From: Entophlyctis helioformis
Taxonomy: Eukaryota > Chytridiomycota > Chytridiomycetes > Chytridiales > Chytriomycetaceae
Length of the DNA: 64,000 nucleotides
Direction of reading: 5' to 3'
NCBI GenBank assembly: GCA_025526915.1
Contig: JAHLKH010000096.1
Span: 33,395-97,394, forward strand
Each line of letters begins with the position of its first letter. The first letter of the stretch is position 1. Shown here in pieces: positions 54,126 through 63,130 of this stretch. The position numbers were made by a program, and so were the translations under genes. The notes below the pieces were generated by a model. It was given only the letters and a program-made list of their open reading frames with translations. It was not told where the DNA came from and searched no databases.

Positions 54126-55800
54126 GATGACCCAATGCCGTACTCGTTCTCGGTCGACGACACAGACACCACCAACAGCCTCTTCTGCACGTGACCCGCT
54201 GCACAGCATCGCTGTCTGGTAAGCTCTCCTTCCGCCTGCCCATCTCTCGTGGCATGCTCTGCAAGAGTGCGTGCTGACTGCTCTGTGGGACAACCAACAG
54301 GCCACACTGAGGCGATCCTGTCCGTGTGCTTCAGCCCCGACGGCAAGTCGCTGGCGACGGGGTCGGGCGACACGACGGTGCGAGTGTGGGATCTGAACAC
54401 AGAGACGCCGCGCCACACACTCGCTGGCCACACCAACTGGGTCCAGATCGTTGCATGGTCGCCCGACTGCGAGTGGATCGCATCAGGCAGCATGGACTCG
54501 ACCGTGAGTTGGTTGTGCGCTTCCTGCTGTTGGGACGTTGGCACTGACCTGGCTGGATGGCATGCATGCGTGTGCACTTGCGCATACAGATCCGGTTGTG
54601 GAATGCGAAACGGGGTGTGGCATTCGGCGAGCCGCTGCGTGGACACACCAACTGCATCACCAGTATCGCTTGGGAGCCCATGCACAGGTGCGCCGTGACT
54701 GCCCCGATATCGCAGGCGAACGGCACAGCATGGACTGACATGGACTGACCTGTCCGTTCGTTTGCTCGACAGAAACATGGAATGCAACAGGTTTGCCAGT
54801 GCGGCCAAGGACAACACGGTCCGCATCTGGGACGCCACGTCGCGTCGTGTGCTCTTCTCGCTTGCACAGCACACGGCACCGATCATGTGCGTCAAGTGGG
54901 GCGGCGAGGGTCTCATCTACACAGCATCGCGCGACAAGTTGATTCGTGTCTGGGACAGCAATGATGTACGTCCCAGCCCTTGTTGCTCTGTCTCTTGTCT
55001 CCATACTCACGCGAGCCTGCCGACCAACCAGGGCAAGCTTGTGCGAATCCTCAAGGGCCATGCACACTGGGTCAACCACCTTGCACTCTCGACCGACTTT
55101 TTCCTGCGCACGGGTCCGTACGACCACACAGACCCGGTGTTTTCGACCAAGGAGGCAGCGTTTGAGGCAGCCAAGAAGCGCTACGATGCTGGCCTCGCTG
55201 CACAGGGCGGTATTGAGCGTCTTGCGTCGGGATCAGACGACTTTACCATGTTCCTGTGGGAGCCGACCAAGGCCAAGAAGCCCATCGCGCGCATGACGGG
55301 CCACCAGCAGCTCGTCAACCACATCTCGTTCTCGCCCGACGGCCGGCTGCTTGCAAGTGCCAGTTTCGACAAGAGAGTCAAGCTCTGGGAAGCCAACAGT
55401 GGAAAGTGAGTTGCTGTGTTTGTGCATGCACGCACATGTATTCACTCGCATGTATGCATGGTTTGTGCACGAGGCTGGATCTGACGCGTGGCGTGCAGGT
55501 TCATTACAACGCTCCGCGGACATGTCGGGCCGGTGTACCAGGTGTGCTGGTCGTCAGACTCGCGACAGCTGCTTCGGGATCGCGCGACTCGACGCTCAAG
55601 TGTGGGACCTCAAGACCAAGAAGATGAAGATGGAGCTGCCTGGACATGCTGACGATGTCTTTTCGGTCGACTGGTCGCCTGGCGGCGATCGTGTTGCCTC
55701 GGGCGGCAAGGACCGCATCCTCAAAATGTGAGTTGTCTGGATGGGGCGATGCGATGTGGCTCAGACTGACATGCTGCCGGTCCACAGATGGAGACATTAG
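54126..55800 (+). CDS. RSA4: NLE1/Rsa4 WD40 ribosome-assembly protein (5' end damaged)
   Basis: Visible exons: a 5' region from 54126, then 54301-54503, 54590-54687, 54773-54965, 55032-55405, 55499-55727, 55788-55800. The NLE domain is represented only by DDPMPYSFSVDDT, then TRCTASLSG leads into eight WD40 repeats (GHTEAILSVCFSPDGK, WVNHLALSTDFFLRTG, GHADDVFSVDWSPGG, end IWRH). Rsa4/NLE1 is a substrate of the AAA-ATPase Rea1 in 60S maturation. Problems: about 20 expected residues between SFSVDDT and TRCTASL are missing with a frame change, no convincing start codon is found, and exon 55499-55727 has two one-base breaks (near 55572 and 55603). An essential gene should not be broken, so assembly error or another intact copy is likely. 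Confidence 0.85.
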
Positions 55801-56043: not shown

Positions 56044-59000
56044 CATGACCCTCAACGGCAAGGAAACTCCCCACGACGGGTCGCCACCACTAGCGGTTGC
56101 CGCCCCTGCTGCTGAGCACGCCGTGCACCAACGCGGAAACGCCTCCCTCCTTTGACGCCTCCTCGACGGCCATCACCAAGCCGCCTCGAGCCATCGCTGC
56201 TCCAAGTGTGGCCGCCATCAGCACCAAGAGCAAGCCGAGCAAGTGGTACGACCGTCTCATCTGTGGCAGGTGGCCCGACATCGGCCAGCAGGCAACTCCT
56301 GCCAAGAGTGCCTCGCCCTCTGTCTCGACCGTCGAGGATGACGAGCAGCGATCCGCTCCTCCAAACGCTGTGCCAATCAGCATCGATGTGGCTGAAGTCA
56401 ATGCCAACAAGGTGTGGCCGTGCACACACTGCCGTTGCTGCCGTTGCTTCCGCCGCCGCCACTGTTGTTGACTGACACACACACAGCTCCGCTCTGAGCT
56501 CGTGGTGATGCTCGAAGAGGAGGCTGCTCGCATCAAGACTGCCAATCCATCCAAGCATGAAGATCTCGTCAGTGCCATCGACGGGCATGTGGACAGGATG
56601 TTCGAGCTGCGGAGCCAGATCGTCGTGAGCAGCCGCATCGCTCCCCGCTGCTGTGGATGACTCGCTGGCCCAGGCTGCTCGAGTCGCTCCGACTGCGAAA
56701 GTGGATGCTGCCTTTAAGAGCTCAAGCGCGTTCTCGGATCGGCACTCGAGAAGAAAGAGATCATCACGGCCTATAGCTCGTTCCTCAAGGAGGTTGGCGA
56801 GGACGAGGTTGACATTGATGCAGCCACCGTCTCCAACATCGCCACGCTGTCGTCGTCCGTCGTCGAGTTTGTCGACAGGATCCACAAGGCTCCCAAGAAG
56901 ACCGACGGCAGCAGCTTCAAGGCCGTGACGCGCTTCCTCGCCACCAACAGCCTCGAAGTCATCTCGACTGTCATCTCTGCAGCCAAGGTTGCGTCGCAGT
57001 TTTTGCCGTTCCCATTCATTCACGACGCCATTGGCATCATCGACAGCATCTTCAGCAACATCAAGGGCGGCGTGGAAAGCATTGCCGGTCTGAAGAGCTT
57101 CCTGGACGACCTCAAGGAACTCAAGGCGATCCTTGCACCGATGGCCAACCAGCGGTTCTCTGCCGATGTGCGCGACAAGTGCGCTGAGCTGGTGGATCTG
57201 CTCAAGCAAGTTCAGGCGTGCATCCCGACTGGCAACAGCACAACCGTCAGCTGGTACAAGAATATCTCTGAAGCCAAGAAGGTTGCAGCCCAGATCACTG
57301 GATACAATAGCCGTCTTGCCAAGATCAAGGAGGTGCGTGACGATCGCTTTGCTCTCAGGGATCTGTGCACTTGGCTGACTGACACTCTCCACCCACCAGC
57401 TGATCTCGCTCGCCATGCAAGTGGACTCTGCTGTCATGCTGATGCACACGGCCAAGAAACTCAACCTGATCGACACCAAGACAGACAAGATCCTGCAGTG
57501 CGTCTTGCTGCCATTGGCTGCCACCACCACACCATTTCCATCCACTGACACGCGACGCTATACAGATACGTCCGTCCGCGTACTCTCCACCTTCGCCACG
57601 ACGACTTTCAAATCTCAGACGTCCCTGAAGACTCCAAGGGCACATTCACGGTGTACAAGGCCAAGATGGATGGCATGGATTTTGTGCTCAAGACTTTTAA
57701 GCAGCCATCCAACCCAGAGGCGATCGAGACTGAGGCACGCAAGTGGTTCAACATGAGCCACCCCAACATCCTTGATCTCACTGGCATCTGTCTCAAGGGC
57801 AAGGACGACCAGAAGCCATTCCTCGCCTTCCCCTTTGTAAGGGACGATCTTGAGTCCTTCATGGAAGCCCCTCCTCGTCTTTCCATGGACAATCGCATCT
57901 CCATTCTCATTCGTCTGGCCCGCGGTATCCAGTATCTGCACAAGTATGCACCTGATGCACCGATTGTGCATGGCTCACTGACTCTGAGCCATGTCCGCGT
58001 GGGTAAGTGTGCTGTGGATACACATTGGCTTTCATGTCAATGCATTGCTGGATTGTATGCAGATGGGCTGATTGAATGGCATGCCATGACAGAGGCAAAG
58101 ATGAATGATGCTCGCACTCTCAAGATCCGCAGTGTCAAGATTATGCCCAACATCACATCAGCTGGTGATGCCACGCAAGCGATGGACTCCCCCTTTCTAG
58201 CTCCTGAGGCTAAGTGGGATGGCTATGTTGCCAAGGAGCCACTCGACATCTATGCCTTTGGCATCATTGCCATGGCAGTGCTGTCGTCCAAGCTGCCGGA
58301 GCAGCTGGATCTGGAGGCAATGGAGAAGCCTGAAGGTGTCTCGGACCAGCTGTGGGGCATTATCAACAAGTGCCTATATCACGGGGTTGGTTCTCGGCCA
58401 AAGGCAGATGGCCTTGTGCAAGAACTACTCAAGGTTGCACCTCCCAAACCAGGCAAGTCTGTGATGCTGCCTGTAGCTGCATGATCTGGCTGTCCAGCAT
58501 TGAGCTGACTGAAAGAGACCTGAAATGGAAGCAGTCAACAAGGCCATGCTGCAGGCTGGCGCCACTGATCTGGAAACACTCTGCTTCTTGTTCCCTGAGT
58601 GGACCGATGACAGTGAGATCACCATCAACTCGACCAATGCCAATGGCGGAATGCTGCATCTGTTTGATGCTCATCTGGGACGCACCATCTCCACCTTCAG
58701 ACTTGAGTGGAATGCCAAGTTCCACTTGACAGCTCTGTGAGTGCAGTTGTGGTGTGATTGGATGTATGACGTCTGTGGACTGACAGAAGTGCTGTGTGTG
58801 TGCACTGCATGGACAGACGCCTGACTGGCTGTGGTCTCACTGGCATCATTCCCAAGGAGATTGGCAATCTGAGCATGCTGACTGAGCTGTGAGTTGGAGA
58901 AAGCTGCAAGTGTGTGAATGTGGTGGATGGCTAACACTGCTTCACATGGCTGAATGGACAGCTGGCTTGATCAGAATGATCTGGATGGCATCTCACCAAT

Positions 59001-60283
59001 GATCTGGAAACTGACAAAGCTCAAGTCACTGTGAGTGCTTTGATGCCACTGTGGATGGATGGATGGATGCTGATGCATACAAATCTACCAAACAGGCGGC
59101 TAGGACAAAACAAACTGAATGGATCCCTTCCAGTAACAATCAGACTGCTGAGGGACTTGGAGGAGCTGTGAGTGTGAAGCATAGTATGCACTAGCAGAAC
59201 AAGTGAGTTTGACTGACTGGGTGATGGATCACATGCGCAGTGATATCCAGGGCAATCAGATTGGAGAATTGCCAGAGGCTTTGTGGGATCTGCACAAGTT
59301 GACAAAGCTGTGAGTGGCAATGATGGAGAAGCAGTACTGATGAGGCTGCTTTGTTGGCTAACTATTGCATGATGGACAGGAATGTCTCTGATAATGGCAT
59401 CCAGGAAATACCAGAGGAGATTGGACAGTTGACAAGCTTGGAAGTGTTGTATGTCCAGACTGTGGATGGATGATGAAGTGGATTGGATGTGACTGCTGAC
59501 ATGGAGTGGATGCTGCAGGGAATCTGAGAAGCAACAAGCTGAAGAACTGCCTGAATCCATTGGCAAACTGGTGCAATCTGACTGAGTCTGTAAGTTCAAA
59601 CTGTGGATGGATGGTGAAGTGGATTGGATGTGACTACTGACATGGAGTGGATGCTGCAGGGATCTGAGAAGCAACAAGCTGAAGACACTGCCTGAATCCA
59701 TTGGCAATCTGGTCAATCTGACTGAGCTGTAAGTTCAAACTGTGGATGGATGGTGAAGTGATTGGATGTGATTGCTGACATGGAGTGGATGCTGCAGGAA
59801 TCTCAGTTTCAATGAGCTGAAAACACTGCCAAAATCTATTGGTGATTTGACTTGTTTGACCAGTCTGTAAGTTCCAACTGTGGATGGATTGTGAAGTGGA
59901 TTGGATGTGATTGCTGACATTGAGTGGATGCTGCAGGGATCTGTGGAACAACAAGCTGGAGACATTGCCTGAATCCATTGGCAATCTGATCAATCTGACC
60001 AGTCTGTAAGTGTCAACTGTGGATGGATGGTTAAGTGGATAGGATGTGATTACTGACATGGAATGGATGCTGCAGGGATCTGTATGACAATCAGCTGGAA
60101 ACACTGCCTGATTCCAATTGGCAATCTGACAATCTGACCAGTCTGTAAGTGTCAACTGTGGATGGATGGTGAAGTGGATTGGATGTGACTGCTGACATGG
60201 AATGGATGCTGCAGGCGTCTGTATGACAATCAGCTCACAGAACTGCCTGAATCCATTGGCAAACTGGTCAATCTGACTGAGCT
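56044..60283 (+). CDS. Four-helix-like domain + pseudokinase + LRR protein (MLKL-like plan), 3' end disrupted
   Basis: N-terminal helical region (about 56720-57497) with SQFLPFPFIHDAIGIIDSIF and LKSFLDDLKELKAIL, resembling MLKL/HeLo-type bundles. A protein-kinase fold follows (57560-58484): beta-3 Lys kept (MDFVLKTF), HRD replaced by VHGSL, no DFG, APE kept (LAPEAKW), so a predicted pseudokinase. A 61-nt intron (donor GTCTGT near 58462, CTGAC branch, acceptor near 58520) removes the apparent stop at 58482 and joins PPKPGK to PEMEAVNKAM. This leads to an LRR cap (LCFLFPEWTDD) and eleven LRR exons, each 68-72 nt and starting in phase 2: 58817-58888, 58962-59030, 59096-59167, 59241-59309, 59380-59448, 59519-59589, 59660-59728, 59798-59866, 59937-60005, 60076-60144, 60215-60283. 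The retroelement follows at 60325. The start codon is uncertain. Confidence 0.7.
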
Positions 60284-60324: not shown

Positions 60325-60580
60325 TGTAACACTGGGCCTCCAGGCGGACTTGCCGGCTGGTTGCAGGGGCAGTGAGTATGCACGCGAGGAAGGGCGGGCA
60401 GACGACTTCATTGAGACATAAGCACAGACCTGGTTGCAGGGGCAGTGAGTATGCACGCGAGGAAGGGCGGGCAGACGACTGCAAGAACGGGGGCAACCAG
60501 AGCGGGGACGCGGCCGGGCGATGTCTGTCCGGTCACGTGGGTCACGTGGATCACGTGACCGCGACCGAGCATCCGTTACA
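60325..60580 (-). mobile_element. 3' LTR of a Ty3/gypsy element
   Basis: On the minus strand it begins TGTAACGGATGC and ends GTGTTACA, a 256-bp terminal repeat with the usual TG...CA ends and a 6-bp inverted TGTAAC/GTTACA terminus. Directly upstream (minus strand, 60581-60588) is the polypurine tract GGGGGGAG that primes plus-strand DNA synthesis. Inside are a direct repeat of about 50 bp (60358-60407 and 60430-60480) and three CACGTG boxes at 60533-60558. No second LTR is in the window. Confidence 0.85.
60531..60560. promoter_or_regulatory. Triple CACGTG (E-box) cluster in the LTR
   Basis: GGTCACGTGGGTCACGTGGA then TCACGTGACC: three CACGTG cores 11-12 bp apart, the last in the perfect palindrome GGTCACGTGACC-like context. 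CACGTG is the binding core of bHLH factors (Cbf1/Pho4/MITF-type). In the LTR this could drive element transcription. Confidence 0.5.
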
Positions 60581-63130
60581 CTCCCCCCAGCGTAGACAGC
60601 CACTTATAAGAAAGAAGAGTGGATGAACAGCGACTAGGGGATGCAGGGGCATTGCGCACACGAGAGGCAGAAGTGCGGGCAACAATGGACGCGTAGGACA
60701 CAGGACGGGGGCCGTGCGCTCAGAGCGACGAGGTGGGGCGGGATGGTTGAGAGGGGGAAGAGAAGAAAGAGAGAAGGAAGGAGGAGAAGAGGGAGGAGGG
60801 AGAGGAGGGAAAGATGGAGAGAGAGAGGGAGATGCGGGTGCAGCAGGTGCGATCGGCTCGTCAGCCGGAGCAGGTGCCGCGGGCGTGGCCGCGTATGGAG
60901 CAGAGGCCACTGGTGCAGGAGCAGGCGCAGTGCGCTTGCGGCGAGAGGACTTGGATGCCTTGGGCTGCGTGGGAGCAGGCGCCGCGGCAGGAGCAGGAGC
61001 AGCCGGTGCAGGGGCAGCCGGTGCAGGAGCCGCGCGCGTGGGCTGAGCCGGTTTGGGCGCCTTGCCTTTAGGCGCCTTGGACGGCCGAGCGTGGAATGCC
61101 TTGACGAGGTCCTGGGCCTTGCGCATGTCGGCGGCTGGGACCCATGTGTTGTCGTCGGCTGGATAGCCAACCCACTTGACCAGATACTCGATCTTGCCGC
61201 GATAAGTGCGCGAGTCGACGATCCGCTCGACCTCGTAGTTGTCCGACGTGCCGTCGTCGGCGTGGTACTCGGGGTCAGGCCGTGAGGGCACGTCCTTGCG
61301 GCCGGTAGGCGCAGACAGAGGGTCAACGTATGGGCAGATCCGGTCGGCATGGAACACGTTGTGGACGCGGTGCAGCGAGGCAGGCAGCGCGAGCGTGTAG
61401 TTGAGGCCAGATTCACCAGAGTCCAGGCTGGTGATGGCAAAAGGGCCGAGCCACTTGGCGGCCGTGAGCGGCGGGCGGTGCGAGTCCGCCGGCCAGGAGA
61501 TGCCCTCAGCGTTGAGGAGCACCATGTCGCCGACCTTGTACGCAGGGTGACGGCGGCGACGCTTGTTTGCCTGAACAGCCATGGCTGCCTGGGCTTTGCG
61601 CCGATTCAAAATGGCTGAGTCGCGAGCAGCGGCCATGTCCAGCAGCAGGTCGCGGGCCGCGGCAGACGGTGCCAGGGCCGGCTCAGACGGGAAGGACCGC
61701 GGGTGGCGGCCAAACGCCAGGAAGAAAGGAGCAAAGCCAGACGAAGCCGACGGCGCGCAGTTGAGGCCAAAGCAGGTGGGACCGAGCAGCACGGCCAGTC
61801 AGAGCCGTGGTAGTCGGCCGCCTTGGCGAGCGCATCCTTGATGGTGCGGATGCTGCGTTCGGCCAAGCCGTCAGTCTGCTGGTGGCGAGCCGTGCTGAGG
61901 TTCTGCTTGATACGGGCAGCGGTGCAGAGGCTCGACCAGAAGGCCGACAGCCAGCGGGCGTCACGGTCCGAGACGATGTCGACGGGAAGCCCTTGCCCGA
62001 GCAGACCCAGCGAGTCAGGAAGAGCTCGGCCAGCTCCTGGGCCGACGACGAGCGGCGGCACGGGAACGCGTCGCAGAGACCGGACAGGCGATCGACCACA
62101 ACCAGAGCAGCATCAAACGCATCGTCTTGTCCGCCCGCAGGCAGGAACATGACGTCCATGGCGACGCTCGAGAAGCAGTCGTCCGGGATCGCGAGTGGAT
62201 GCAGCAGGCCGTCAGGCCGGTGATTGGGCGTGCGGTGGCGCTGGCACACGTCGCATGAGGCGACATAGGCAGCAATGTCCTCAGACATTCTGGGCCAGAA
62301 GTACCGGTTCGACAAGCGGCTGGTGGTCCGCTGACGTCCCTGGTGCGCACCGAAGGGAGAGTCGTGGTAGTGGGCGAGCAGATCCGCGCGCAGAGACTGC
62401 GGCACATACAAGCGGTTGCCTTTGTACCACCACGCACCATCCAAGCACTCCATGTGCACTACGACCTTGCGGTCGGCCGGCGTGGCTGACGACGGGTCAG
62501 CCTTCCAGCCAGGCAGTCTGGAGGCGAATGGGTCGGCCGGCAACGCCGCACGCACGTCTTTCGCCCAGTCAGAGTCAGTGCGCAGATTGGCAGCACGGAT
62601 CGGGACAGGCGAGCGACAGTTTGTGCAGAGAGGGGCCTTTGAGGGATCGCGGGACAGCAGATCGGCCAGCGAGTTGAGCTCGCCAGGCACGTACTCATGG
62701 ATGTATCAAACTCCTGCAGAGACAGGACCCATCGAGCCTGCCGATCCGACAGGTGGGGCTGCGTGGCCAACCAGACCAGCGCCTTGTGGTCAGTGTGCGT
62801 GACAGAGCGCACACTGGACAGCAGATGACGGAAACGCGAGAAGAACTCCACGATGGCGAGCAACTCGCGTTCGTGGGTTGGATAGTTCATCTCGGCTGGG
62901 CTAAGCTTACGTGACCAGCAGGCCACCAGCTTCTCGCCATCTGGGTGGATCTGCGACAGGTAGCCGGCAATGACGTAGTTGCTGGCATCAGTGTAGACAT
63001 GCGTTTCCAGAGCCGGGTCAAAGAACCGCAGCTCGGTTGCCTTCAACACTGCCTGTCGCAGGTCTTCCACAGCCTGCTTTTGGGCAGGGCCCACTCCCAC
63101 TTGGCCAGTAGCTTGTATAGTGGCAAGCAC
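60551..63130 (-). mobile_element. Ty3/gypsy chromovirus pol, 5'-truncated and frame-broken
   Basis: Reading on the minus strand: RNase H domain (62700-63060: HVYTDASNYVIAGYLSQ, HTDHKALVWL), H2C2 zinc-binding integrase start (SCDVCQRHRTPNHRPDG), integrase core (AMDVMFLPAGG, DRDARWLSAFW, ARHQQTDGLAERSIRT), then a chromodomain (YEVERIVDSRTYRGKIEYLV) and an Ala/Pro/Lys-rich tail that reads through the polypurine tract into the LTR (stop at 60551). The frame breaks near 62690 (between RNase H and integrase), 62010 and 61797. Reverse transcriptase, protease and gag are missing: the element is cut off at about 63130. Chromodomain integrases target heterochromatin. Confidence 0.93.

Follow-up and report, generated by a model that had tools for sequence, protein, structure and literature searches.

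A candidate family of MLKL-like pseudokinases fused to leucine-rich repeats in the chytrid Entophlyctis helioformis

Introduction

In MLKL, the executioner of necroptosis, which is activated by an upstream kinase and permeabilises membranes, a helical bundle, a linker and a pseudokinase make up the whole protein, which ends at the pseudokinase. This is not so for BC831DRAFT_436610 of the chytrid Entophlyctis helioformis, the gene described here, in which the database models continue beyond the pseudokinase into a cap and an array of leucine-rich repeats (LRRs). The gene lies on the plus strand at 56045–60283 of a 64,000-nucleotide stretch of contig JAHLKH010000096.1 (the window, to which coordinates refer unless another locus is named), and its database protein, P0009, has 796 amino acids. 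We propose, with a probability of about 0.52, that it belongs, in damaged form, to a chytrid family of LRR-gated, MLKL-like executioner receptors, the proteins being intracellular and receptor-like in nature, as a hybrid of MLKL and NLR. Strict membership of the MLKL family is not claimed because of the added LRRs and the sub-threshold profile scores.

Described systems come close to this layout from several sides. MLKL-related bundles head many fungal NLRs, whose sensors are reported to be WD40, ANK or TPR repeats rather than LRRs (PMC9815663), and MLKL-type bundles with kinases are already known in fungi (PMC12881547). Some fungal HeLo/HELL/BaMLKL bundles carry an extra N-terminal helix (PMC9815663, PMC12881547). 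In a survey of early-diverging fungi, MLKL homologues were reported only in Glomeromycotina (PMC8778642). A 2010 survey found LRR receptors to be nearly absent from fungi and recorded four LRR and kinase genes in Batrachochytrium plus a group of five in ascomycetes, the latter, to which we take the remark on introns to refer, being intronless and bacterial-like (PMC2939053). No description of an LRR-fused MLKL or of the present family was found in the literature covered, which largely leaves aside subscription journals. Relative to the literature found, the LRR-fused form may be new.

Results

Family members share one domain order, from a disordered N-terminus through a helical domain, a pseudokinase and an LRR cap to an LRR array, and the exons of the window gene follow it. 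A disordered N-terminal exon (56045–56412), which holds an SKWYDRLxCG-type motif and is disturbed in frame relative to the paralogues, precedes a second one (56487–56660) whose frame closes at a stop codon (56658–56660) in this copy. The MLKL_N-like bundle is encoded by exon H1 (56718–57332), and the end of its last helix together with a brace-like linker by exon H2 (57400–57497). Exons K1 (57566–58002) and K2 (58063–58452) make up the pseudokinase, region P1 (58513–58736) the LRR cap, and the array (58817–60283) has one LRR of 69 or 72 bases per exon, ten units being read. The kinase domain matches PF07714 in the read-through frame (E=1.8e-12), and the LRRs of P0009 match LRR_8 (4.2e-39).

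A sequence-only reading of this DNA had joined a helical region, a kinase and an LRR array in one gene, and exon order, the matches pointing to MLKL_N and the database models bear this out; in the models of the window gene and of its paralogues, kinase and LRRs are one protein and not separate genes. That reading had also called for an intron removing the stop at 58482. From the paralogues we place a probable intron at 58453–58512; L014, a paralogue, has an intron at the equivalent place and its frame continues, and the P0009 model skips the stop as well, with intron borders that differ from ours. Provided that our borders are right, the intron is of GC-AG type, the database model splicing otherwise.

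The kinase had been read as keeping its beta-3 Lys and lacking the HRD Asp and DFG, and the paralogue alignment agrees. In the window the Lys is at 57690–57692, HGS replaces HRD at 57969–57977, and the aligned DFG stretch in K2 has no Asp. The alignment of 18 proteins shows an invariant beta-3 Lys (18/18) and a nearly invariant alpha-C Glu (16/18, with Asp in two); the HRD Asp and the catalytic-loop Lys occur in none of the 17 readable rows, and the aligned DFG stretch is without Asp in 18 rows. The active kinase of LRR receptor-like kinases is not found here, the catalytic residues being missing, and their loss is common to both genera in which the family occurs (see below). A kinase-only profile built from eight proteins retrieved MET, 6lba (rank 3), SymRK and IRAK3 among the best PDB sequences, with human-type MLKL from rank 8. 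When the helical part was included, 6lba, which we take to be an Arabidopsis protein, came first (E=7.1e-17), the aligned stretch being the kinase. This structure is termed an MLKL protein in PMC10881975.

The helical domain had been expected to be a bundle, and profiles of the MLKL N-terminus, HeLo and RPW8 had been suggested for comparison; the plan stands up to these comparisons, though within limits. Sub-threshold matches to the Pfam profile MLKL_N (PF22215) were obtained for eight of 15 proteins (the strongest at 2.8e-4) and six of ten fragments (the strongest at 3.8e-5), and for none of five reversed controls. No HeLo, HELL or RPW8 profile was among the Pfam families listed for the domain. 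The AlphaFold prediction is all-helical and resembles RPW8-type coiled-coil (CC-R), Cbl and Rx-type coiled-coil (Rx-CC) bundles, which stand together near the top of the fold matches, NRG1.1 and the Rx CC included. With Foldseek and these low-confidence models, mouse MLKL (4btf) alone among 50 listed rows aligned long enough for both domains. Exon H2 is the same as or close to that of the window in 15 of 16 matched loci (93.9–100% identity; 81% in L011). By hydropathy, which alone was used for transmembrane segments and signal peptides, the top 19-mers of five proteins fall in the helical domain, the kinase, the LRRs or an Ala-rich stretch, with values reaching 1.92 in P0001 and P0006, where the peak lies in the helical domain.

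Several matches to the helical domain were set aside. When the helical exon of the window gene was searched by itself against PDB sequences, the sole match was a ribosomal protein (E=0.43), taken as chance, and ATG17_like (0.0016 on the same exon) is far under the cut-off and absent from the families listed for other members. For a 778-residue model, the VIA listing consisted entirely of kinase chains, without MLKL; it was uninformative on the bundle and excludes nothing. One genomic PF22215 match, on contig C57, falls by eye in an apparent dynein heavy chain, and another, at C111:20426, belongs to a separate gene, L029 (C111:18500–27500). At 1690–5823 of L029 there is an open frame of 1377 amino acids with C-terminal WD40 repeats, a TKL kinase domain (3.8e-30) in which HGN replaces HRD and a DMG motif is present, and a weak MLKL_N match (0.0081), no other family being listed for residues 1–437. 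L029 may be the counterpart, with WD40 repeats, of the LRR family.

Paralogues, which the sequence-only reading had proposed to look for, are numerous. A six-frame search of the 29.6 Mb E. helioformis genome with the L014 H1 exon gave 28 matches, grouped into 20 loci on 20 contigs; for 17 of these, the nearest contig end is no more than 15 kb away. Eighteen paralogue loci were taken for exon comparison (C10 was left out). The first kinase exon was matched in 14 of them; there was no match in L022, L023 and L026, and L025 meets the contig end. In L022 (C318) and L023 (C27) the kinase exons are absent and the helical exons adjoin the cap region directly. By tblastn, H1, H2 and K1 are each a full-length single piece in 9 of the 18 loci, the others being changed in frame or cut by a contig end.

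Protein searches, each limited to scoring about 8,000 top candidates by shared words, found relatives with the helical domain in two species only, E. helioformis and Polyrhizophydium stewartii, amounting to 19 proteins plus P0020. The remaining listed matches, judged by coverage and domains rather than by one-by-one alignment, cover at most 31% of P0009 or at most 50% of the query region and are mostly LRR or kinase proteins. A tree was built from 14 of these 19 proteins, P0007 being omitted for its poor gene model and four more as partial or near-duplicate. It splits the two species from each other with 100/99 support, P0013 being a long branch, so that the sets expanded separately in each. 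In P0020 (P. stewartii HK105_003092) a class C G-protein-coupled receptor (ANF_receptor, 7tm_3) is joined to a family member with a shortened kinase, which may be a fusion of gene models. A short motif of the SKWYDRLxCG / RLFGCxxPG type, at 56230–56290 in the window and in the N-termini of P0001, P0006, P0012, P0013 and P0016, is by eye loosely conserved in both genera within disordered surroundings, and perhaps serves in membrane anchoring or oligomerisation.

For the LRRs of L014, the best matches are plant LRRs (GSO1, E=1.1e-82). From 59454 on, the window array consists of tandem units of exon plus intron (139 bases, 6.3 copies, 86% matches). For the window copy and L009 taken together, exon divergence exceeds that of the introns in 79 of the 91 unit pairs (0.407 versus 0.242). 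All 125 units of 72 bases give mean divergences of 0.298 and 0.273; by locus, exon divergence is the higher in 7 of 10 (clearly in L009 and L021) and the lower in L013, L015 and L018. These are unconditional pair figures, since restriction to intron differences of at most 0.15 biases toward an exon excess. The proportion of nonsynonymous differences (pN) is 0.469 at exposed LRR codons and 0.194 elsewhere, and its ratio to the synonymous proportion (pS) is 0.82 versus 0.52, pS also being higher at exposed codons (0.570 versus 0.373) and the pN/pS order being reversed in L012. On these sequence comparisons, in which unit pairs are non-independent, divergence nears saturation at some codons and introns may have undergone conversion, LRR units vary most at codons predicted to be exposed. 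Identity to the window also changes abruptly from exon to exon: in L021 it is 97/89% in the two N-terminal exons and 55/24% in K1/K2, and in L011 it is 86/79% in K1/K2 and 33% in H1. Such jumps suggest that modules have been exchanged among paralogues.

The window copy itself departs from this family pattern. Its nearest paralogue in a first search was L009 (C184), with 94% identity over 1374 of 1401 bases. Compared with the paralogues, it has small indels, partly frame-offset LRR exons and a stop (56658–56660) that separates the second N-terminal exon from H1. Its run of 139-base tandem units ends abruptly at 60326, 225 bases before an open reading frame on the reverse strand (60551–61798) with a chromodomain match (1.6e-17); none of this had been remarked in the sequence-only reading. 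A Ty3/gypsy-type element (60327–61798, minus strand, its left border placed at the end of the tandem unit) probably inserted here, and the copy is probably a decaying family member or bears assembly errors. We consider it probable that the locus is a pseudogene without a remaining role, given the stop, the offsets and the end of the array beside a retroelement, although the indels could be assembly errors. This would be compatible with every reading of the family and does not extend to it, as the full-length H1, H2 and K1 pieces in half of the paralogue loci indicate; L014, which matches database protein P0001, can be spliced into the LRRs without any stop. In L017 (4000–6180), the LRR array of another member runs, by eye, into apparent retroelement sequence. 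Upstream of the window gene, at 54699–55409, lies a WD40 gene (WD40 match 9.5e-29), presumably resembling Notchless/NLE1.

Discussion

By analogy with MLKL, HeLo and CC-domain proteins, members of this family could act in sensing, switching, membrane attack and cell death, with an immune or allorecognition role. The C-terminal LRR array would sense a ligand, and its binding would relieve an inhibition of the bundle held by the pseudokinase, the dead kinase being the switch. The N-terminal bundle, of MLKL_N/HeLo type, would be the output, oligomerising at the membrane and attacking it, with death or sealing-off of the cell as the result, like MLKL and the CC domains of plant resistosomes. A further proposal, which we hold only tentatively, is that these are NOD-free, all-in-one immune or allorecognition receptors, with an LRR sensor, a pseudokinase in place of the NTPase and an MLKL-type pore-former; in a lineage almost without NLR-type switches, they would have expanded separately in the two genera, with tandem LRR exon-intron units and module exchange as sources of diversity. 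Exon-wise genome searches at E≤0.001 found no NB-ARC, exon-wise searches found one NACHT place, and eight family proteins scanned singly had no NACHT or NB-ARC switch.

Several observations weigh against the executioner receptor. The MLKL_N matches stay below the Pfam cut-off of 27 bits wherever bits are shown, and both AlphaFold models are of low confidence (57.7 and 60.1). Unrelated bundles reach Z scores similar to those of the CC-R, Cbl and Rx-CC bundles, and the Cbl-c bundle equals CC-R in score. Adding the helical part to the profile did not raise the score of a 471-residue MLKL chain (57.6 to 55.2 bits), and the PDB matches of the combined profile do not extend into the MLKL N-terminus. 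That the combined profile stops short in this way limits our confidence both in the executioner reading and in the NOD-free proposal.

The family could instead be one of scaffold or adaptor receptors, in which LRRs, pseudokinase and bundle assemble a signalling complex of IRAK3 or Cbl type and no membrane is attacked. The presence of IRAK3 and SymRK among the top kinase-profile matches would fit such a role, as would the equal score of the Cbl-c bundle, and the highly conserved H2 linker could serve as a docking surface. However, Pfam repeatedly picks MLKL_N and not Cbl_N, and no further signalling domain rises above the cut-off in the eight singly scanned proteins, so that we regard a scaffold as unlikely. 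Less likely still is an LRR-pseudokinase expansion whose unfamiliar N-terminus is an unrelated bundle, a view that the sub-threshold hidden Markov model scores, the low confidence of the structures (pLDDT, predicted local distance difference test), the similar Z of unrelated bundles and the profile matches stopping short of the MLKL N-terminus would favour, but against which several members concur on MLKL_N where none of the reversed controls does, and CC-R, Rx-CC and Cbl bundles cluster near the top of the fold matches.

If the LRR-gated executioner receptor is the correct reading, the family adds a further layout of sensor, switch and executioner and offers a basal fungal lineage in which to test how MLKL-type death arose. 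With animal MLKL, its members share a predicted helical bundle, a linker and a pseudokinase that has the beta-3 Lys and lacks the HRD Asp; they differ in the LRR cap and array after the kinase and in the long N-terminal extension before the bundle. Plant MLKL (6lba) is the top PDB match of the helical and kinase profile, in its kinase part, whereas the plant HeLo profile is not among the Pfam matches here; we know of no plant MLKL with an LRR array. The fungal HeLo/HELL and BaMLKL effectors have an MLKL-related bundle comparable to the one predicted here, some with a kinase or pseudokinase (PMC9815663, PMC12881547). In fungal NLRs, WD40, ANK or TPR sensors stand behind NACHT or NB-ARC, whereas here LRRs stand behind a pseudokinase. 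Plant LRR receptor kinases resemble the family in their repeats, plant LRRs being the best match of the L014 LRRs, but here the domain order is opposite, the kinase is dead and the N-terminus is helical. Plant NLRs with an RPW8- or Rx-type CC are comparable in their N-terminal CC bundle, which the predicted chytrid fold resembles, and in their C-terminal LRR sensor, the difference being that in the chytrid proteins a pseudokinase occupies the position of the NB-ARC switch.
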